From NCBI GenBank assembly GCA_947497455.1, contig CANMGU010000001.1:744001-808000 (forward strand): a stretch of DNA of 64,000 bases, in the 5' to 3' direction. Shown piece by piece: positions 46,148 through 55,228 of the stretch. Made by a program: the position numbers and the translations under genes. Under the pieces are notes generated by a model that saw only the letters and a list, made by a program, of their open reading frames with translations, was not told where the DNA came from and ran no database searches. The stretch's first letter is position 1; each line of letters opens with the position of its first letter. The stretch comes from an uncultured Sphingomonadaceae bacterium. Lineage in GTDB: Bacteria; Pseudomonadota; Alphaproteobacteria; Sphingomonadales; Sphingomonadaceae.

Positions 46148-46298
46148 CCTTTCGACCAAAATGTCTTTCTGCATATTATATTGCCAGTACGTGCAATTAG
46201 GGCGACGAAATTACAATAAACCCGCTGTCGCAATATATTGATTTACTGTAAAAGATTCGCGTGGGGCAGTCTTTTTACCCTTTGTGGGAGAGATTGTA

Positions 46299-46832
46299 AT
46301 GAAACGTGGTTTTTCTTGTGCGCTTGCCATTGCGCCAATGTTGGCTTTGGCTGTTCCTGGTTCGGCCAACGCGGCTGTTTTTCTGGACTTTGACGGCAGC
46401 GATGGCGTGTTTGGGAATGATGACGTAACGGCGGATACATTTTCTGACGAGTTTATTTTTGACACTGGCGTATCTGCAGGATTGTTATCCGCTACGATTT
46501 CGTCAATCGCGTCTTCCGATCCGTCGAGCAATATTGATTTTACCTCCGTCACCATCAACGGCACAGAATTTGATCTCGTCCAGGCTGGCCGGGTTGAGTT
46601 TCGCAGCATAGAAGATTTGCTGATACCGGGAGGCTTGCAAACACTTATCGTTACGGGCACCTCAGGCGGGACCGGTTCCTATTCCGGGACGTTGGCATTC
46701 GCAAACGCGACCGCAGTTCCGGAACCAGCAGTCTGGGCATTCATGATATTCGGCTTTGGTGCCATTGGCGGTGCCCTGAGAACAACGCGTCGCCGTCAGC
46801 ATAAGGCGAATGTGAAGGTTGGCTACGCCTGA
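46299..46832 (+). CDS. PEPxxWA-CTERM sorting domain protein
   Basis: A 177-residue exported protein. It has a signal peptide (ALAIAPMLALAVPGSANA), a beta-rich domain with Asp/Gly-rich strands, and a C-terminal signal: VPEPAVWAFMIFGFGAIGGA and then basic TTRRRQ. This is the PEPxxWA variant found in sphingomonads and thought to be recognised by a dedicated sorting or exosortase-like enzyme. The mature domain has no named family. GGGAGA precedes the start. Confidence 0.9.
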   Translation: MKRGFSCALAIAPMLALAVPGSANAAVFLDFDGSDGVFGNDDVTADTFSDEFIFDTGVSAGLLSATISSIASSDPSSNIDFTSVTINGTEFDLVQAGRVEFRSIEDLLIPGGLQTLIVTGTSGGTGSYSGTLAFANATAVPEPAVWAFMIFGFGAIGGALRTTRRRQHKANVKVGYA

Positions 46833-50107: not shown

Positions 50108-50701
50108 ATGAGAACAGCTACAATAGAGCGAAACACCAAGGAAACCGAGATTTTCGTCGAGCTAAATCTTGACGGAACCGGCCAATATGACGTGTCGACC
50201 GGGATCGGTTTTCTCGATCATATGATCGAGCAATTTTCCCGCCATTCGCTGATAGATCTGACGCTTAGGGTCAAAGGTGACCTGCATGTCGATCAACATC
50301 ACACCACCGAAGACAGCGCCATTGCGGTCGGACAAGCCATCGGCCAGGCTCTGGGCGACAAGGCTGGCATCGTGCGTTACGGTAGCACTTATTCACCGAT
50401 GGACGAGACGTTGAGCCGTGTCGCTCTGGATATTTCAGGACGTCCCTGGCTAGTTTGGAAGGCCGGGTTCACGCAGGAACGGCTGGGTGAAATGGACACC
50501 GAGCTGTTTAAACACTGGTTTCACAGTGTTGCTGATGCTGCCGGCATCACATTGCATATCGAGCTGCTTTATGGCGAGAATAACCACCATATAGCCGAGA
50601 GCATCTTCAAGGGCTTTGCCCGCGCGATGCGCCAGGCGGTTGAGCGTGATCCGCGCAAAGGGGATGCCATTCCTTCTACCAAAGGGCAGCTTGGTGGCTG
50701 A
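50108..50701 (+). CDS. hisB: Imidazoleglycerol-phosphate dehydratase
   Basis: A 197-residue monofunctional HisB for the sixth step of histidine synthesis. The metal-binding signatures [16 protein letters not shown] and [17 protein letters not shown] are intact, and [16 protein letters not shown] is typical. It is the first gene of hisB-hisH-hisA-hisF and overlaps hisH by 8 nt. Confidence 0.96.
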
Positions 50702-51314
50702 AACCATTGCGCTTATCGATTTCGGCGCCGGTAACTTACACAGTGTGCACAATGCGTTGATCGCAACCGGCGCATCCGGAGTGGTCGTAACTGCTGATCC
50801 TGATGTGGTTGCTGCGGCGGATCGCATCGTTCTGCCTGGTGTGGGTGCCTTTGGCGCGTGCCGCGATGCCTTGGCGGGCATAGACGGCATGATTGCGGCT
50901 CTGGAGCGACGGGTGCGGCAAGAAGGTACACCATTTCTCGGCATCTGTGTCGGCATGCAATTGCTTGCCGATAAAGGCATAGAATTTGGAGAACATCAGG
51001 GACTTGGTTGGATCGGCGGTACGGTGCACGCTATCGAAGCAGCATCAGCTGATATCAAAATTCCGCACATGGGCTGGAATGATGTCACGCCTACGACCGG
51101 CCATGACCTGCTGGAGGCGGGAGAGGCCTATTATCTCCATGGCTATCATTTCGATGCGGCGGATTCAGAGGATATTTTTGCAACCACCTTTCATGGTAGA
51201 AAGCTGGTCTCTGCCATTGGCCGTGACAATATTGTTGGGGTGCAATTTCACCCGGAAAAAAGCCAAGCCTATGGGCTGGCTTTCCTCAAACGCTTTTTGG
51301 AGTGGAAACCATGA
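50694..51314 (+). CDS. hisH: Imidazole glycerol phosphate synthase, glutaminase subunit
   Basis: A 206-residue glutamine amidotransferase subunit that supplies ammonia to HisF. The active Cys is in [10 protein letters not shown], and the His-Glu pair is in [10 protein letters not shown]. The start is a GTG at 50694 ([14 protein letters not shown]), inside the end of hisB. The frame is open to 50616, but the family starts here. It overlaps hisA by 4 nt. Confidence 0.95.
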
Positions 51315-52036
51315 TCGTTTTTCCTGCCATTGACTTGAAATCCGGCGAATTCGTTCGCTTGGCCGAAGGTGATATGGATCGTGCCACCGTCTATGGCGAC
51401 AATCCAGCGGAGCAAGCGGGTCTGTTCGCCAATGCTGGGGCTGAGCATATTCATGTCGTTGATCTGGACGGCGCTTTTGCAGGATCTCCGCGCAATGCCG
51501 AAGCGGTTGAAGCCATTGTTGCGAGCTTCCCAGGCTATGTGCAGCTGGGCGGCGGTATCAGAAACCGGGAAACTGTCGAGCGCTGGTTTGAACTGGGCGT
51601 GGCGCGATTGGTGATCGGCACGGCGGCACTGAAAGACCCGGAATTCGTTCGCGACATGGCGAAGGAATATGAAGGCGGCATTGTGGTAGCCGTTGATGCC
51701 CGTGACGGCATGGTCGCCACGGAGGGCTGGGCCGATGTTTCGGAAGTCAGCGTGATCGACATGGCGCGGCGGTTCGAGGATGCCGGGGTGGCTTCTCTGT
51801 TGTTCACTGATGTGGGCCGCGATGGGCTGCTGACCGGGTGCAATATAGAAGCAACGGTAGATCTCGCCCGGGCGGTCGATATTCCGGTGATCGCCAGTGG
51901 CGGCGTCAAAGGGCTGGATGACATTCATATGCTCAGCCAGTTTACCCAAGACGGCATTGAAGGCGTGATTACGGGGCGGGCGCTCTATGATGGACGGCTT
52001 GATCTGGCCACTGCAATCGCGATGGCGAACCGCTAA
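51311..52036 (+). CDS. hisA: ProFAR isomerase
   Basis: A 241-residue TIM-barrel isomerase for the fourth step of histidine synthesis. The first strand is [16 protein letters not shown] with the catalytic Asp, and the second is in [13 protein letters not shown]. The start overlaps the hisH stop as ATGA. HisF follows after 2 nt. Confidence 0.95.
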
Positions 52037-52038
52037 GC

Positions 52039-52806
52039 ATGACCGTCCGTATCCGTGTCATACCCTGTCTGGATGTCGCCGATGGCCGCGTGGTCAAAGG
52101 CGTCAATTTTGTTGATCTTAAAGATGCCGGTGATCCGGTGGAGCAGGCGCGAGCCTATGATGCAGCTGGCGCCGATGAGCTTTGTTTTCTCGACATTGGT
52201 GCAAGTCATGAGAAGCGTGACACGATTATCGATGTGGTACGACGGACCGCAGAGGTCTGTTTCATGCCGGTTACTGTAGGCGGCGGTGTAAGAACGGCGG
52301 ACGATGCTCGCGCGCTGTTGATGGCAGGAGCAGACAAGGTGGCGGTCAACAGCGCCGCTGTGTCTCGCCCTGAAGTGGTCAGCGACATAGCGGGCCGTTT
52401 TGGCAGTCAGTGCATGGTCGCCTCGATTGATGCGCGCAGCGTTGAGCAAGGGCGCTGGGAAATCTTCACTCATGGTGGTCGTACGCGAACCGGGATTGAT
52501 GCCTTGGAGCATGCCGCGCGCATGGCGGAATTGGGGGCAGGGGAGTTGCTTGTCACATCGATGGACCGTGATGGCACTCGTGATGGTTATGACCTGTCGC
52601 TGACCCGAGCCATTTCTGATGCGGTTGCCATTCCAGTCGTTGCCAGCGGCGGGGTGGGAACGCTTGATCATATGGTGGAAGGGGTCACAAAGGGCGGTGC
52701 TAATGCGGTTCTGGCTGCCTCGATTTTCCACTTTGGCCAGCATAGTATATCAGAAGCACATGATGCGCTTCGTGCAGCAGGGCTGCCGGCGCGTCATAGC
52801 AGTTAA
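52039..52806 (+). CDS. hisF: Imidazole glycerol phosphate synthase, cyclase subunit
   Basis: A 255-residue TIM-barrel cyclase, partner of HisH. The catalytic Asp is in [17 protein letters not shown] and the second in [12 protein letters not shown]. The C-terminal phosphate-binding loop [11 protein letters not shown] is conserved. In many sphingomonads hisE follows directly; here two PEP-CTERM-type genes come first. Confidence 0.96.
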
Positions 52807-52856
52807 GACATTATCTCGACTTGGTTCAAGATGATACAGAATGGAAAAACCTTCTG

Positions 52857-52864
52857 TTAACCAT
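52857..52864 (+). promoter_or_regulatory. CtrA-like half site upstream of first PEP-CTERM-type gene
   Basis: TTAACCAT, 131 nt before the start at 52995. A second TTAA pair with 6-nt spacing lies at 52898-52911. The stretch from 52855 to 52920 is very AT-rich. Motif match only. Confidence 0.45.
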
Positions 52865-52994
52865 CTATTTTTACAGAATATTAATCTTCTTTTCCCATTA
52901 ACGTTTTTTAAACCATTTGTTCGCGTTCTCCGTTTATCGCGGTCAAATTTCTGGTTGAAATCGGAAAGGCCCGCCGGGCGAAATGAGGGATGAG

Positions 52995-53708
52995 ATGAAG
53001 ATTGTTCGCATTGCAATAATTGGTACAGTATCGGCATTGGCGATGGCAGCCGTCCCGGCTCAAGCTATCTATCCTTCCCAATCGAAGGACGCGCAATCGC
53101 AGGGCGGGAAACGGGGCGGATCGTCTGGTTACGGTGGCAGTTCGGGCAGTTCGAGCAGTTCGGGAAGCTCCGGCAGCTTCAGTTCCACCAGCACTGGCGG
53201 GTCCACTTCGACATCGTCCGGAGGATCGTCAACCAGTGGCGGCTCGACCTCTACTTCGACCGGCGGCGGCACTTCGACAAGTGGTGGTTCCACCTCCACA
53301 TCGAGCGGCGGTTTCTCCAGCACATCAACCGGCGGCTCAACATCGACATCGTCCGGCGCAATTTCATCCTCTTCAGGCGGTGTTTCGACATCTACCGGCG
53401 GTGTTTCCACTTCAACAGGTGGTGTTTCCACCTCAACTGGCGGCGTATCGACATCTACGGGCGGTGTATCTACATCTACCGGCGGCTCGTCCAGCTTTGG
53501 CGGATCGAGCAGCTCTTCCAGTTCAAGTTCCAGCAGCAGTTCGTCTTCTAGCAGTTCCTCGAGTTTTGGCGGATCAACGGGTGGTCACCCTGGGGGATCA
53601 ACCGGAGGGACGCCTGTTCCTGCACCGGGCGTGATGATTCTCTTTGGTCTGGGTGCTGGTGGTCTTGCAGCAGGCCGGTTATATCAGCGCCGGCGGAAGA
53701 ACAAATAG
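52995..53708 (+). CDS. Ser/Thr/Gly-rich exported protein with PEP-CTERM-like anchor
   Basis: A 237-residue protein. The signal peptide is MKIVRIAIIGTVSALAMAAV with PAQA cleavage. The mature part is almost entirely Gly, Ser and Thr, in blocks such as GSSGYGGSSGSSSSSGSSG, five VSTSTGG repeats and long serine runs. The end is TPVPAPGVMILFGLGAGGLA, then AGR and a basic tail, so it looks like a PEP-CTERM anchor in which PEP has become PAP. Predicted to be a processed, probably glycosylated or matrix-linked surface protein. An AGGGA ribosome-binding site supports 52995. Confidence 0.85.
   Translation: MKIVRIAIIGTVSALAMAAVPAQAIYPSQSKDAQSQGGKRGGSSGYGGSSGSSSSSGSSGSFSSTSTGGSTSTSSGGSSTSGGSTSTSTGGGTSTSGGSTSTSSGGFSSTSTGGSTSTSSGAISSSSGGVSTSTGGVSTSTGGVSTSTGGVSTSTGGVSTSTGGSSSFGGSSSSSSSSSSSSSSSSSSSSFGGSTGGHPGGSTGGTPVPAPGVMILFGLGAGGLAAGRLYQRRRKNK
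53382..53486 (+). repeat. Five 21-bp tandem repeats encoding VSTSTGG
   Basis: Five exact seven-residue repeats in the coding frame. The nucleotide copies differ at many third positions (for example GTT TCG ACA, GTT TCC ACT, GTA TCT ACA), while the amino acids are identical. Confidence 0.9.
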
Positions 53709-53838
53709 AAGCCGTATTCGACCCAAGATTTCTATTCTCGAAAAAGTTCATGGGGGAGGCTGAACAGCCTCATCCCGTGTATTCAGCCCCCAGGATCAAT
53801 TGACGCTTTGTCCCATTATGGGACAGCTATCTTCAAGG

Positions 53839-53854
53839 TTAATGTCGACTTAAC
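53839..53854 (+). promoter_or_regulatory. Full CtrA-like site upstream of second PEP-CTERM gene
   Basis: TTAA-TGTCGAC-TTAAC, an exact match to the TTAA-N7-TTAAC CtrA consensus, 138 nt before the start codon at 53992. A TTAACCAT half site lies 29 nt further on. Confidence 0.6.
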
Positions 53855-53882
53855 TTACATTTTTCACGACGCGAAAAAGCCG

Positions 53883-53890
53883 TTAACCAT
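53883..53890 (+). promoter_or_regulatory. Second CtrA-like half site upstream of PEP-CTERM gene
   Basis: TTAACCAT, the same octamer as at 52857 and 32212, about 100 nt before the start at 53992. Two sites in one short leader make control by CtrA more credible than one match alone. Confidence 0.45.
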
Positions 53891-53991
53891 TGTCACCAAC
53901 CTGTAAGGCGGAAATCCCATGTTTGGCAGGAATATTGCTTCACCAATCTATCAAATATTATGATTTTCAGTCATGTTCCCAAGGGTAGGTT

Positions 53992-54372
53992 ATGAAGCTT
54001 GCAAAACTGACCATATTAACCGGAACCGCCATTATCGGCGTTTCGGTCGCGGTTCCAGCCAATGCAACATGGTATCCCCATAGTGGAACGTCGCACGGCG
54101 GCTGGAGTACATCAGGCGGTTGGGGCGGTTCTGTTTGGGGATCCTCAGGATGGAGCAGTTCCGGCTGGGGCTCATCGAGCTACGGCGGGACGACAAGCAC
54201 GTCGACCAGCAGCAGCTCTAGCAGCTCGACGTCAACAGGCTCATCATCAAGCGGCTCGTCATCTGGCGGTATAACAGTTCCTGAGCCATCCAACATGGTC
54301 ATGCTGGCACTGGGCGTTGCCGGTCTAGTTGCTGGACGCATGGCGGCACGCAAGAAACGCAAGAAGTTGTAA
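53992..54372 (+). CDS. PEP-CTERM sorting domain protein, Ser/Gly/Trp-rich
   Basis: A 126-residue exported protein. The signal peptide (MKLAKLTILTGTAIIGVSVA, ending PANA) is followed by a short Gly/Ser/Trp region (GWSTSGGWGGSVWGSSGWSS) and Ser/Thr runs, and the anchor VPEPSNMVMLALGVAGLVAG, then R and a basic tail. It is a paralogue of the preceding gene: same start, similar tail with AGR, but with Trp and shorter. An AGGGTAGG ribosome-binding site is present. Confidence 0.88.
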   Translation: MKLAKLTILTGTAIIGVSVAVPANATWYPHSGTSHGGWSTSGGWGGSVWGSSGWSSSGWGSSSYGGTTSTSTSSSSSSSTSTGSSSSGSSSGGITVPEPSNMVMLALGVAGLVAGRMAARKKRKKL

Positions 54373-54421
54373 AGTTCGTCACCGAATGGATGCGCAGATC
54401 TCTGATCTTGCTGCACCATGG

Positions 54422-54457
54422 AAGGGCCGTCATCGGGGGATTAGACGGCCCTTTCTT
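54422..54457 (+). terminator. Terminator after the second PEP-CTERM gene
   Basis: A 10-bp perfect stem AAGGGCCGTC (54422-54431) with GACGGCCCTT (54444-54453), loop of 12 nt, then TCTT. It separates the PEP-CTERM gene from hisE. Confidence 0.82.
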
Positions 54458-54526
54458 ATGGGTAATATCGCTTACAGTCTTTCAAGGACTTGACGCCTGT
54501 CCCATTGCTCGCGCAAACGGGCATCC

Positions 54527-54844
54527 ATGAATGATATTTTGCACAAGCTGGAAGCGACCATCCACCAACGCCGGGATGCAGATCCCGAAGACAGTTATGT
54601 TGCCAGCCTGCGCGCAAAAGGCCGCGCGAAGATGGCGGAAAAACTGGGTGAGGAAGCAGTAGAAGCGGTTATCGCAGCGGTGCAGGGTGATGAAGCGGGA
54701 ATGACTAGCGAGGCGGCTGATATACTGTTTCACTTGATGGTATTGCTGGCTGATATGGGCCTGTCGGTTGATGATGTGCTGGCCGAGCTAGCTCGCCGCG
54801 AAGGCCTGTCCGGCATTGCCGAAAAAGCTTCAAGAAAGGACTGA
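54527..54844 (+). CDS. hisE: Phosphoribosyl-ATP diphosphatase
   Basis: A 105-residue all-alpha MazG-like pyrophosphatase for the second step of histidine synthesis. The signature EKLGEEAVEAVIAAV with metal-binding Glu residues is intact, and SYVASLRAKGRAKMAEK is typical. It is separated from hisF by about 1.7 kb carrying the two PEP-CTERM-type genes. HIT gene follows after 3 nt. Confidence 0.95.
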   Translation: MNDILHKLEATIHQRRDADPEDSYVASLRAKGRAKMAEKLGEEAVEAVIAAVQGDEAGMTSEAADILFHLMVLLADMGLSVDDVLAELARREGLSGIAEKASRKD

Positions 54845-54847
54845 CCC

Positions 54848-55228
54848 ATGGCGATTGACGCAACCCAGCCTTATGATGACGAGAATATCTTCGCCAAAAT
54901 CTTGCGCGGAGAAATCCCGAACCGGACGGTGTACGAGGACGAACATGCGCTGGCTTTTCACGACATCAACCCGCAGGCACCGCACCACATTCTGGTGATC
55001 CCGAAAGGCAAATATGTCAGTTGGGATGATTTCTCGGCGATGGCAGATGAAACTGAAATCGCTGGATTTGTTCGTGCGGTCGGACATGTCGCACGAGAAG
55101 CGGGCATGGTCGAGCCCGGCTATCGCTTGCTCGCCAATATTGGTCATGACGGGCATCAGGAAGTACCGCACCTCCATGTCCACATCTTTGCTGGAAAACC
55201 ACTTGGCCCGATGTTGATGAGAGGCTAG
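54848..55228 (+). CDS. HIT family hydrolase (HINT-like)
   Basis: A 126-residue histidine-triad protein. The active-site motif HLHVHIFAG is exact, with DINPQAPHHILVIPK in the N-terminal half. The family hydrolyses nucleoside phosphoramidates. Co-occurrence with hisE is common in sphingomonads. ATG overlaps no gene but is only 3 nt from hisE. Confidence 0.94.
   Translation: MAIDATQPYDDENIFAKILRGEIPNRTVYEDEHALAFHDINPQAPHHILVIPKGKYVSWDDFSAMADETEIAGFVRAVGHVAREAGMVEPGYRLLANIGHDGHQEVPHLHVHIFAGKPLGPMLMRG

Follow-up and report, generated by a model that had tools for sequence, protein, structure and literature searches.

We analysed a 64,000-nucleotide stretch of DNA (the window, throughout) from an uncultured Sphingomonadaceae bacterium (GenBank assembly GCA_947497455.1, contig CANMGU010000001.1, positions 744,001 to 808,000 of the forward strand), in which two genes, here called gene A and gene B, stand between the histidine genes hisF and hisE. 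A his run at 50108-52806 (hisB, hisH, hisA, hisF) is followed by gene A, gene B, hisE and a HIT gene; hisF, hisE and the HIT domain were checked with profiles, while hisB, hisH and hisA were identified by reading. The original prediction, made from the sequence alone, placed two exported Ser/Gly/Thr-rich proteins of the PEP-CTERM type between hisF and hisE, and the open reading frames (ORFs), tails and composition confirmed it. The genes are:

52039..52806, + strand: hisF, which closes the his run upstream (TIGR00735, 329.5 bits, over the cut-off)
52995..53708, + strand: gene A, 237 aa, with a signal peptide, an S/G/T-rich core and a PVPAPG...AAGRLYQRRRKNK tail (from reading, Pfam, selection and composition)
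53992..54372, + strand: gene B, 126 aa, with a signal peptide, an S/G/T-rich core and a VPEPSN...VAGRMAARKKRKKL tail (PF07589, 22.0 bits, over the cut-off; selection)
54527..54844, + strand: hisE (NF001613, 142.8 bits, over the cut-off)
54848..55228: the HIT gene (HIT domain by profile)

For gene A we preferred the start at 52995, which better fits a GAGG ribosome-type site, and an ATG at 52983 is possible. Its product consists of MKIVRIAIIGTVSALAMAAVPAQA, a core with 87% Gly+Ser+Thr and PVPAPGVMILFGLGAGGLAAGRLYQRRRKNK; that of gene B consists of MKLAKLTILTGTAIIGVSVAVPANA, a core with 82% Gly+Ser+Thr that contains W, and VPEPSNMVMLALGVAGLVAGRMAARKKRKKL. Read by eye, both N-termini are signal-peptide-like, with a basic start, a hydrophobic stretch and an AQA/ANA end, and both C-termini carry P[A/E]P, a hydrophobic stretch, GR and a basic end. 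Gene B passes the Pfam PEP-CTERM profile PF07589 (cut-off 20.7) and falls under the cut-off of TIGR02595, the NCBIfam PEP-CTERM domain (11.6 bits, cut-off 16); no family matched gene A in the NCBIfam profile search. We consider gene A a related but less certain member of the pair. Both genes are under purifying selection, as the ratio of nonsynonymous to synonymous substitution rates (dN/dS) shows: in five pairs each it was 0.05-0.09 (gene A) and 0.12-0.28 (gene B). In the comparison with L272, the nearest relative, gene A had dN 0.018 and dS 0.39, gene B dN 0.035 and dS 0.29. Each gene has its own leader, as predicted. The suggestion that the pair descends from an old duplication is not established by these data: the likeness is limited to the tails and signal peptides, the cores are of low complexity and the promoters differ.

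The leader of gene B contains a known regulatory element. Haft et al. (2006; PMC1569441), in the part of that paper dealing with it, describe a box that precedes proteobacterial PEP-CTERM genes, in which a 17-nt motif 1 ending in TTTACA, sometimes repeated, is followed by a sigma-54 motif 2. The same part gives a mean spacer between the motifs of 62.8 nt (range 32-92 nt) and a mean distance from motif 2 to the start of 71 nt, with start codons 23-221 nt beyond the GG/GC sigma-54 motif. Upstream of gene B we found:

53809..53825, + strand: palindrome TGTCCCATTATGGGACA, either a repeat of motif 1 or another operator (TGTC-N9-GACA in 12 of 26 loci of the genus and its near kin, 0 in the reversed control)
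53843..53859, + strand: TGTCGACTTAACTTACA, motif 1 of the PEP-CTERM box and probable PrsR site (length and spacing as in that part of PMC1569441)
53924..53938, + strand: sigma-54 −24/−12 promoter TGGCAGGAATATTGC (motif scans and leader alignment)

Motif 1 is followed by a 64-nt spacer, the sigma-54 site and 53 nt to the ATG, so that the geometry lies within the published ranges and the box is complete. The sigma-54 motif was present at 24 of the 26 genus loci and at none in the reversed control. By itself the sigma-54 pattern is common in the genome (97 matches vs 21 in the control) and only the combined box is informative: it matched three times in 3.66 Mb, with 0 matches in the reversed control. 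The three matches are gene B, the gene of locus L016, whose box has identical spacing, and L334 (G000:C2:1014577-1014672; G000 is our designation of this assembly). The −12 element of L334 reads GTGC, and this match may be due to chance or mark another kind of target. Judged by these elements, gene B closely fits the published PrsR/sigma-54 PEP-CTERM gene.

The genome, assembled in two contigs, also encodes the sorting machinery. An exosortase elsewhere in it, which the original prediction had named as the thing to look for, was found twice over: XrtA (334 bits, cut-off 208) and XrtV (373.4 bits, cut-off 313) both exceed their cut-offs. XrtA carries an EpsI domain and its gene adjoins a TIGR03087 PEP-CTERM/XrtA-type glycosyltransferase gene, while XrtV (NF035943) is accompanied by a V-type EpsI. 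PrsK (453.7 bits, cut-off 300) and PrsR (669.9 bits, cut-off 502.6) are encoded together. A six-frame Pfam search of the genome yielded 15 further PEP-CTERM genes; it is incomplete, since genes A and B are not among its matches, and more such genes may exist. Fourteen of the 15 have tails of the W type (13 PEPxxW and one PESxxW, the latter in L017, a 225-codon frame with a PESxxWA tail), and one W-type example that we examined bears the NCBIfam name PEPxxWA-CTERM (NF035944). The remaining one, L016, has the sole non-W tail, and it is the only one of the 15 with the full box, which precedes 0 of the 14 W-type genes (for L017 the upstream region examined was 206 nt). The window holds a third PEP-CTERM gene at 46284-46832, ~6 kb upstream of gene A, of the PEPxxWA type (VPEPAVWAFMIFGFGAIGG) and without a sigma-54 box.

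To place the insertion in the order we searched 196 genomes for HisE. A match was obtained in 175, of which 146 were examined (30 loci, the window standing for G000, plus 116) and the other 29 lay outside the examined set; 12 examined genomes, all of the own family, had no hisF within reach. This left 134 genomes with a measured hisF-hisE gap, 79 belonging to the own family (Sphingomonadaceae as GTDB defines it, judging from named relatives) and 55 of six other families (f3-f8; f2 not included). The gap exceeded 150 bp in 52 of the 79 family genomes (272-1723 bp) and in none of the 55 others (5-117 bp), and on these counts we consider the insertion an old, family-level character with later losses. 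The proposal that it is specific to one lineage fails at the level of the species or genus, as 51 other measured family genomes have gaps above 150 bp. Nor did the two genes turn up at this position in distant alphaproteobacteria, which the original prediction had named as evidence of an ancestral order: ten such loci, titled Rhodobacteraceae, Paracoccus, Acidocella, Acetobacteraceae, Rhodospirillales or Reyranella, had gaps of 3-167 bp and no tail-bearing ORF by our rule. The same rule detected tail-bearing ORFs in the gap in 40 of the 79 family genomes; it misses nine XrtA-positive long-gap genomes whose ORFs read as tail-bearing, and in controls it gave reverse-strand matches in 2 of the 79 and no forward-strand match in the 55 others.

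Tail-bearing ORFs occupy the locus in Sphingobium cupriresistens (L100), Sphingobium psychrophilum (L106), Novosphingobium endophyticum (L104) and a Sphingomonas metagenome-assembled genome (L099), assigned to the family by name. Neither Porphyrobacter sp. AAP82 (L098; gap of 26 bp) nor Novosphingobium flavum (L103; gap of 37 bp) has such an ORF. Within the genus and its near kin both genes are present at 13 of 26 loci and gene B alone at most others; gene A was not recognised outside the genus loci. Parasphingorhabdus marina DSM 22363 (L086) is a culturable relative that has gene B. The insert has been lost at L088, where 93 bp are left, and L084 keeps a remnant still holding the sigma-54 motif. 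Because the box stands before gene B in the genus and before single genes in other genera, we take gene B to be the older unit and gene A to have been added, or to be a copy that only part of the genus has retained. Four genomes of genus g2 (L020, L027, L033, L190) have a second short ORF between the PEP-CTERM ORF and hisE, with a PELSD/FELSD-like tail that may represent a different exosortase tail class.

Very short forms also occur at this locus. In six genomes of genus g7 (L167, L222, L231, L232, L251, L270) the ORF has 51-55 residues and a tail such as EPSALTLVAVGLAGVLIGRF; no signal peptide is evident by eye in these proteins, and dN/dS of 0.15-0.40 in all 15 pairs indicates purifying selection. 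N. endophyticum has a 57-residue form with few residues between signal peptide and tail. We offer as a suggestion that the sorting tail is the conserved part of the locus product. The 51-55-residue forms would show how small an exosortase partner can be.

Downstream of gene B two elements precede hisE:

54420..54455, + strand: hairpin of a transcription terminator, with a short T-containing tail behind it (folding and conservation)
54489..54494, + strand: CTTGAC, a −35-like element before hisE (26 of 26 genus loci)

A terminator before hisE had been predicted, and folding and conservation within the genus bear it out: a stretch of 51 nt has a folding energy of −27.9 kcal/mol (z −4.7), and a hairpin with a T-containing tail lies ~100-130 nt before hisE at 22 of 26 genus loci by a loose rule used without a control, and at 19 of 26 (vs 1 reversed) by a strict hairpin rule. 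A simple terminator scan did not list the 54420-54455 hairpin, and outside the genus no terminator before hisE was evident (4 of 51 loci vs 2 in the control). CTTGAC is kept at all 26 loci, even at L088, which has lost the insert, so that hisE is likely to have a promoter of its own, with this −35-like element and without a clear −10 element; hisE looks separately transcribed. We found nothing that links the proteins of genes A and B to histidine.

Taken together, we propose, with a probability of about 0.75, that gene B encodes a substrate of the XrtA exosortase/exopolysaccharide system, that it is driven by PrsR and sigma-54, and that it came between hisF and hisE early in the family and stayed there as a self-contained unit, with gene A as a second protein of the same make under a different promoter. 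PrsR, signalled by PrsK, would bind motif 1 and activate the sigma-54 RNA polymerase at 53924-53938. The gene B protein would then be exported by Sec, held in the inner membrane by its tail, and cut and passed on by XrtA, to end as a Ser/Gly/Thr-rich matrix protein outside the cell. The terminator and the separate promoter would keep hisE independent, making the histidine genes neighbours and not partners. We assign gene B to XrtA mainly because its tail type and its full box agree. By raw count, insert and XrtA coincide across the family: XrtA is over the cut-off in 39 of 40 genomes with an insert by the tail rule and in 24 of 39 without (Fisher p 5e-5, on raw counts that ignore descent), or in 48 of 52 vs 15 of 27 when genomes are divided by a gap above 150 bp (p 2e-4, descent likewise ignored).

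Several observations weigh against this proposal. On a HisF+HisE tree (a quick LG+G4 search, with long-branch warnings for G151, G002, G006 and G116) only 5 independent pairs were available, with which a sign test cannot reach significance for the association of XrtA with the insert; because this test has no power, we do not carry the raw association as proof. G117 has the insert and the box and no exosortase match, G216 (of the genus, 89% complete) has the insert and no XrtA over the cut-off, and G201 and G215 have lost the insert and kept XrtA. Gene A scored 20.3 bits against PF07589, just under the cut-off, and has PAP instead of PEP (its relatives at the same position mostly have PEP); its leader has no sigma-54 motif and lacks the box. 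A PrsT-like tetratricopeptide repeat (TPR) protein near PrsK/PrsR reached 141.7 bits over a partial sequence, under the cut-off of 312.2. No PEP-CTERM ORF was seen after the box of L334, and outside the genus the fixed-geometry signs of the box were found at only 14 of 59 loci (51 plus 8 named ones, with near-copies such as L105 and L106 included). Lastly, xrtV itself (L002) is preceded, 41 nt from its start, by a loose sigma-54-like site, TGGCAGATTTTCTGC; TTTACA lies another 56 nt upstream and there is no TGTC motif in place. The W-type genes L003, L007 and L013 are preceded by a TGTC-N9-[G/T]ACA palindrome like the one at 53809. In view of these three palindromes the one at 53809 may be a separate operator, possibly one common to both exosortase systems. 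The form TGTCCC...GGGACA was seen before two of these three W-type genes.

The partial site before xrtV and the palindromes lowered our confidence in XrtA and raised that in its rival, namely that the pair is handled by XrtV, which we still regard as unlikely. XrtV and its EpsI partner are present in the genome, where 14 of the 15 other PEP-CTERM genes are of the W type and one is named PEPxxWA-CTERM. The tails of genes A and B, however, are without W, and the full box is shared by gene B and the sole other non-W gene; W-type tails would, by inference, belong to XrtV. The family argues in the same direction: among the five measured genomes with XrtV and no XrtA over the cut-off, the gap is 10-57 bp in four, and in the fifth, G105, it spans 892 bp and shows no tail-bearing ORF by our rule, whereas 43 of the 52 family genomes with gaps above 150 bp have XrtA and no XrtV over the cut-off.

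A second alternative concerns the regulator. According to parts of PMC3692519, TTAACCAT is a half-site of CtrA and TTAA-N7-TTAAC its full site, and PMC8921679, in a passage citing others, states that motility and exopolysaccharide are under CtrA in Sphingomonas melonis. Matches to both site types lie in the two leaders:

52857..52864, + strand: TTAACCAT, of the CtrA half-site type, in the gene A leader (TTAAC at the same column in 13 of 13 aligned gene A leaders)
53839..53854, both strands: TTAATGTCGACTTAAC, a CtrA full-site match (TTAA-N7-TTAAC) overlapping motif 1 (consensus from the above parts of PMC3692519)
53883..53890, + strand: TTAACCAT, a third element of the box, 41 nt upstream of the −24 site (fixed offset)

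CtrA could in principle be the main regulator, with the TGTC and TGGCA signatures incidental. The genome encodes CtrA (NF045991, 422 bits, cut-off 350), with a full site upstream of its own gene, and consensus sites lie at gene B, as expected of a member of the CtrA regulon. Of 17 distinct full sites in the genome three are directly before PEP-CTERM genes, namely gene B, L016 and L003 (rough binomial 6e-4, assuming 3,500 genes and ignoring base composition and intergenic length). In the hisF-hisE gaps TTAACCAT occurs 19 times in the genus and 10 times in other genera, vs 0.16 and 0.12 expected by shuffles. Against this, the full-site pattern is not enriched genome-wide (22 matches vs 51 in the reversed control), and within the window neither half-sites nor full sites exceed chance. 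The full site is absent from 51 other-genus gaps, and several relatives have it in altered form while retaining motif 1 and the sigma-54 site; the sigma-54 motif itself has the published spacing and the genus-wide conservation given above. CtrA as sole driver of both genes was therefore dropped as the main story once the leader alignment revealed the sigma-54 site and the published box, which account better for gene B, and as main regulator it now seems to us decidedly improbable. A CtrA full site was seen directly before the gene of a 414-aa W-type surface protein without a sigma-54 box (L282, G000:C1:1358934-1358949).

Under our preferred proposal, CtrA acting at TTAACCAT would be a further layer. 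TTAAC precedes the −24 element by exactly 41 nt at 21 of the 26 loci in the genus and its near kin, and at 13 of the 59 in other genera. An offset of 42 nt was found at 3 loci in each group and the remaining offsets between 20 and 69 nt total 4 and 3, with 0 fixed-geometry signs in the reversed control. Outside the genus the letters that follow are CAT in 8 of 13 cases, and in the L016 promoter TTAACC lies at this 41-nt distance. This TTAAC(CAT) element of the box is apparently new. Searches of the literature on PrsR, PEP-CTERM and RpoN showed nothing by title on a third element (most subscription papers being outside the search), and those on PEP-CTERM with CtrA returned only off-topic papers, judged by title and the start of the abstract. 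It is tempting, if quite speculative, to see the sphingomonad PEP-CTERM box as a three-part switch in which the PrsR motif is followed ~40 nt on by a putative CtrA half-site, GTTAACCAT, and exactly 41 nt further by the sigma-54 promoter. Such a switch would tie the synthesis of exosortase substrates to CtrA control of motility and surface life and, as the hisF-hisE locus of some genera encodes almost only a sorting tail, the function that is conserved may be that of the tail. Should the 41-nt element prove to be a CtrA site, the output of matrix protein would be coupled to the CtrA switch.

That genes A and B simply belong to the his operon by read-through, with products that are of low complexity and nearly neutral, is very improbable. 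They do share the strand of the his genes, and the terminator scan gave nothing between hisF and gene A and one weak candidate (52705-52718) within hisF, in its 3' part, but the dN/dS values of 0.05-0.28 in all ten pairs, the sigma-54 promoter of gene B, and the conserved hairpin and CTTGAC before hisE speak against it. The strongest form of the original prediction, a recent insertion special to this lineage, deserves hardly any credence: the restriction of gene A to half of the genus loci would agree with it, and for gene B it is contradicted by the tail-bearing ORFs at the same position in Sphingobium, Novosphingobium, Sphingomonas and further genera, several of them with the same box.

The pair thus belongs to a position-conserved exosortase-substrate locus in much of a family. 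Literature searches combining PEP-CTERM with hisF/hisE gave no paper on this arrangement by title among the matches listed, those combining PEP-CTERM, exosortase and Sphingomonas found no paper (most subscription papers being outside the search), and none of the matches listed in the wider sphingomonad literature contained PEP-CTERM. Exosortase substrates diverge too fast for sequence tracing; the fixed place between hisF and hisE and the promoter geometry let one presumed XrtA substrate be followed across a family. In this two-exosortase genome promoter type and tail type split the substrate genes nearly alike, which makes the pairing of enzyme and substrate directly testable.

Finally, we compared the locus with known systems. 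It is most readily set beside the PEP-CTERM/EpsH (XrtA) system with PrsK-PrsR, with which, going by parts of PMC1569441, it shares the single-gene unit, the long leader, the 17-nt motif 1, the ~63-nt spacer and the sigma-54 motif 2, as well as PrsK/PrsR and an exosortase beside exopolysaccharide-type genes. It differs in lying, across much of a family, between hisF and hisE, in its very short homologues and in the TTAAC(CAT) fixed in the spacer, an element unmentioned in section 7 of that paper. PEPxxWA-CTERM tails (NF035944) and XrtV (NF035943), a putative pair, are present in the same genome; the tail plan is similar, and the W-type genes differ from gene B by the W in the tail and by having no full PrsR/sigma-54 box here. 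Aquincola tertiaricarbonis is a betaproteobacterium. Its pepA, as described in parts of PMC9850573, is an RpoN-dependent PEP-CTERM gene involved in floc formation; it resembles gene B in its −24/−12 promoter, measured in that case, and in the putative terminator that follows it, and differs in adjoining prsT and lying outside a his cluster. The CtrA regulon, as outlined in parts of PMC3692519, offers the last likeness, with both site types before gene B, one before gene A and ctrA present in the genome; unlike in that regulon, the putative half-site here has a fixed place, with an NtrC-type activator motif on one side and a sigma-54 promoter on the other.

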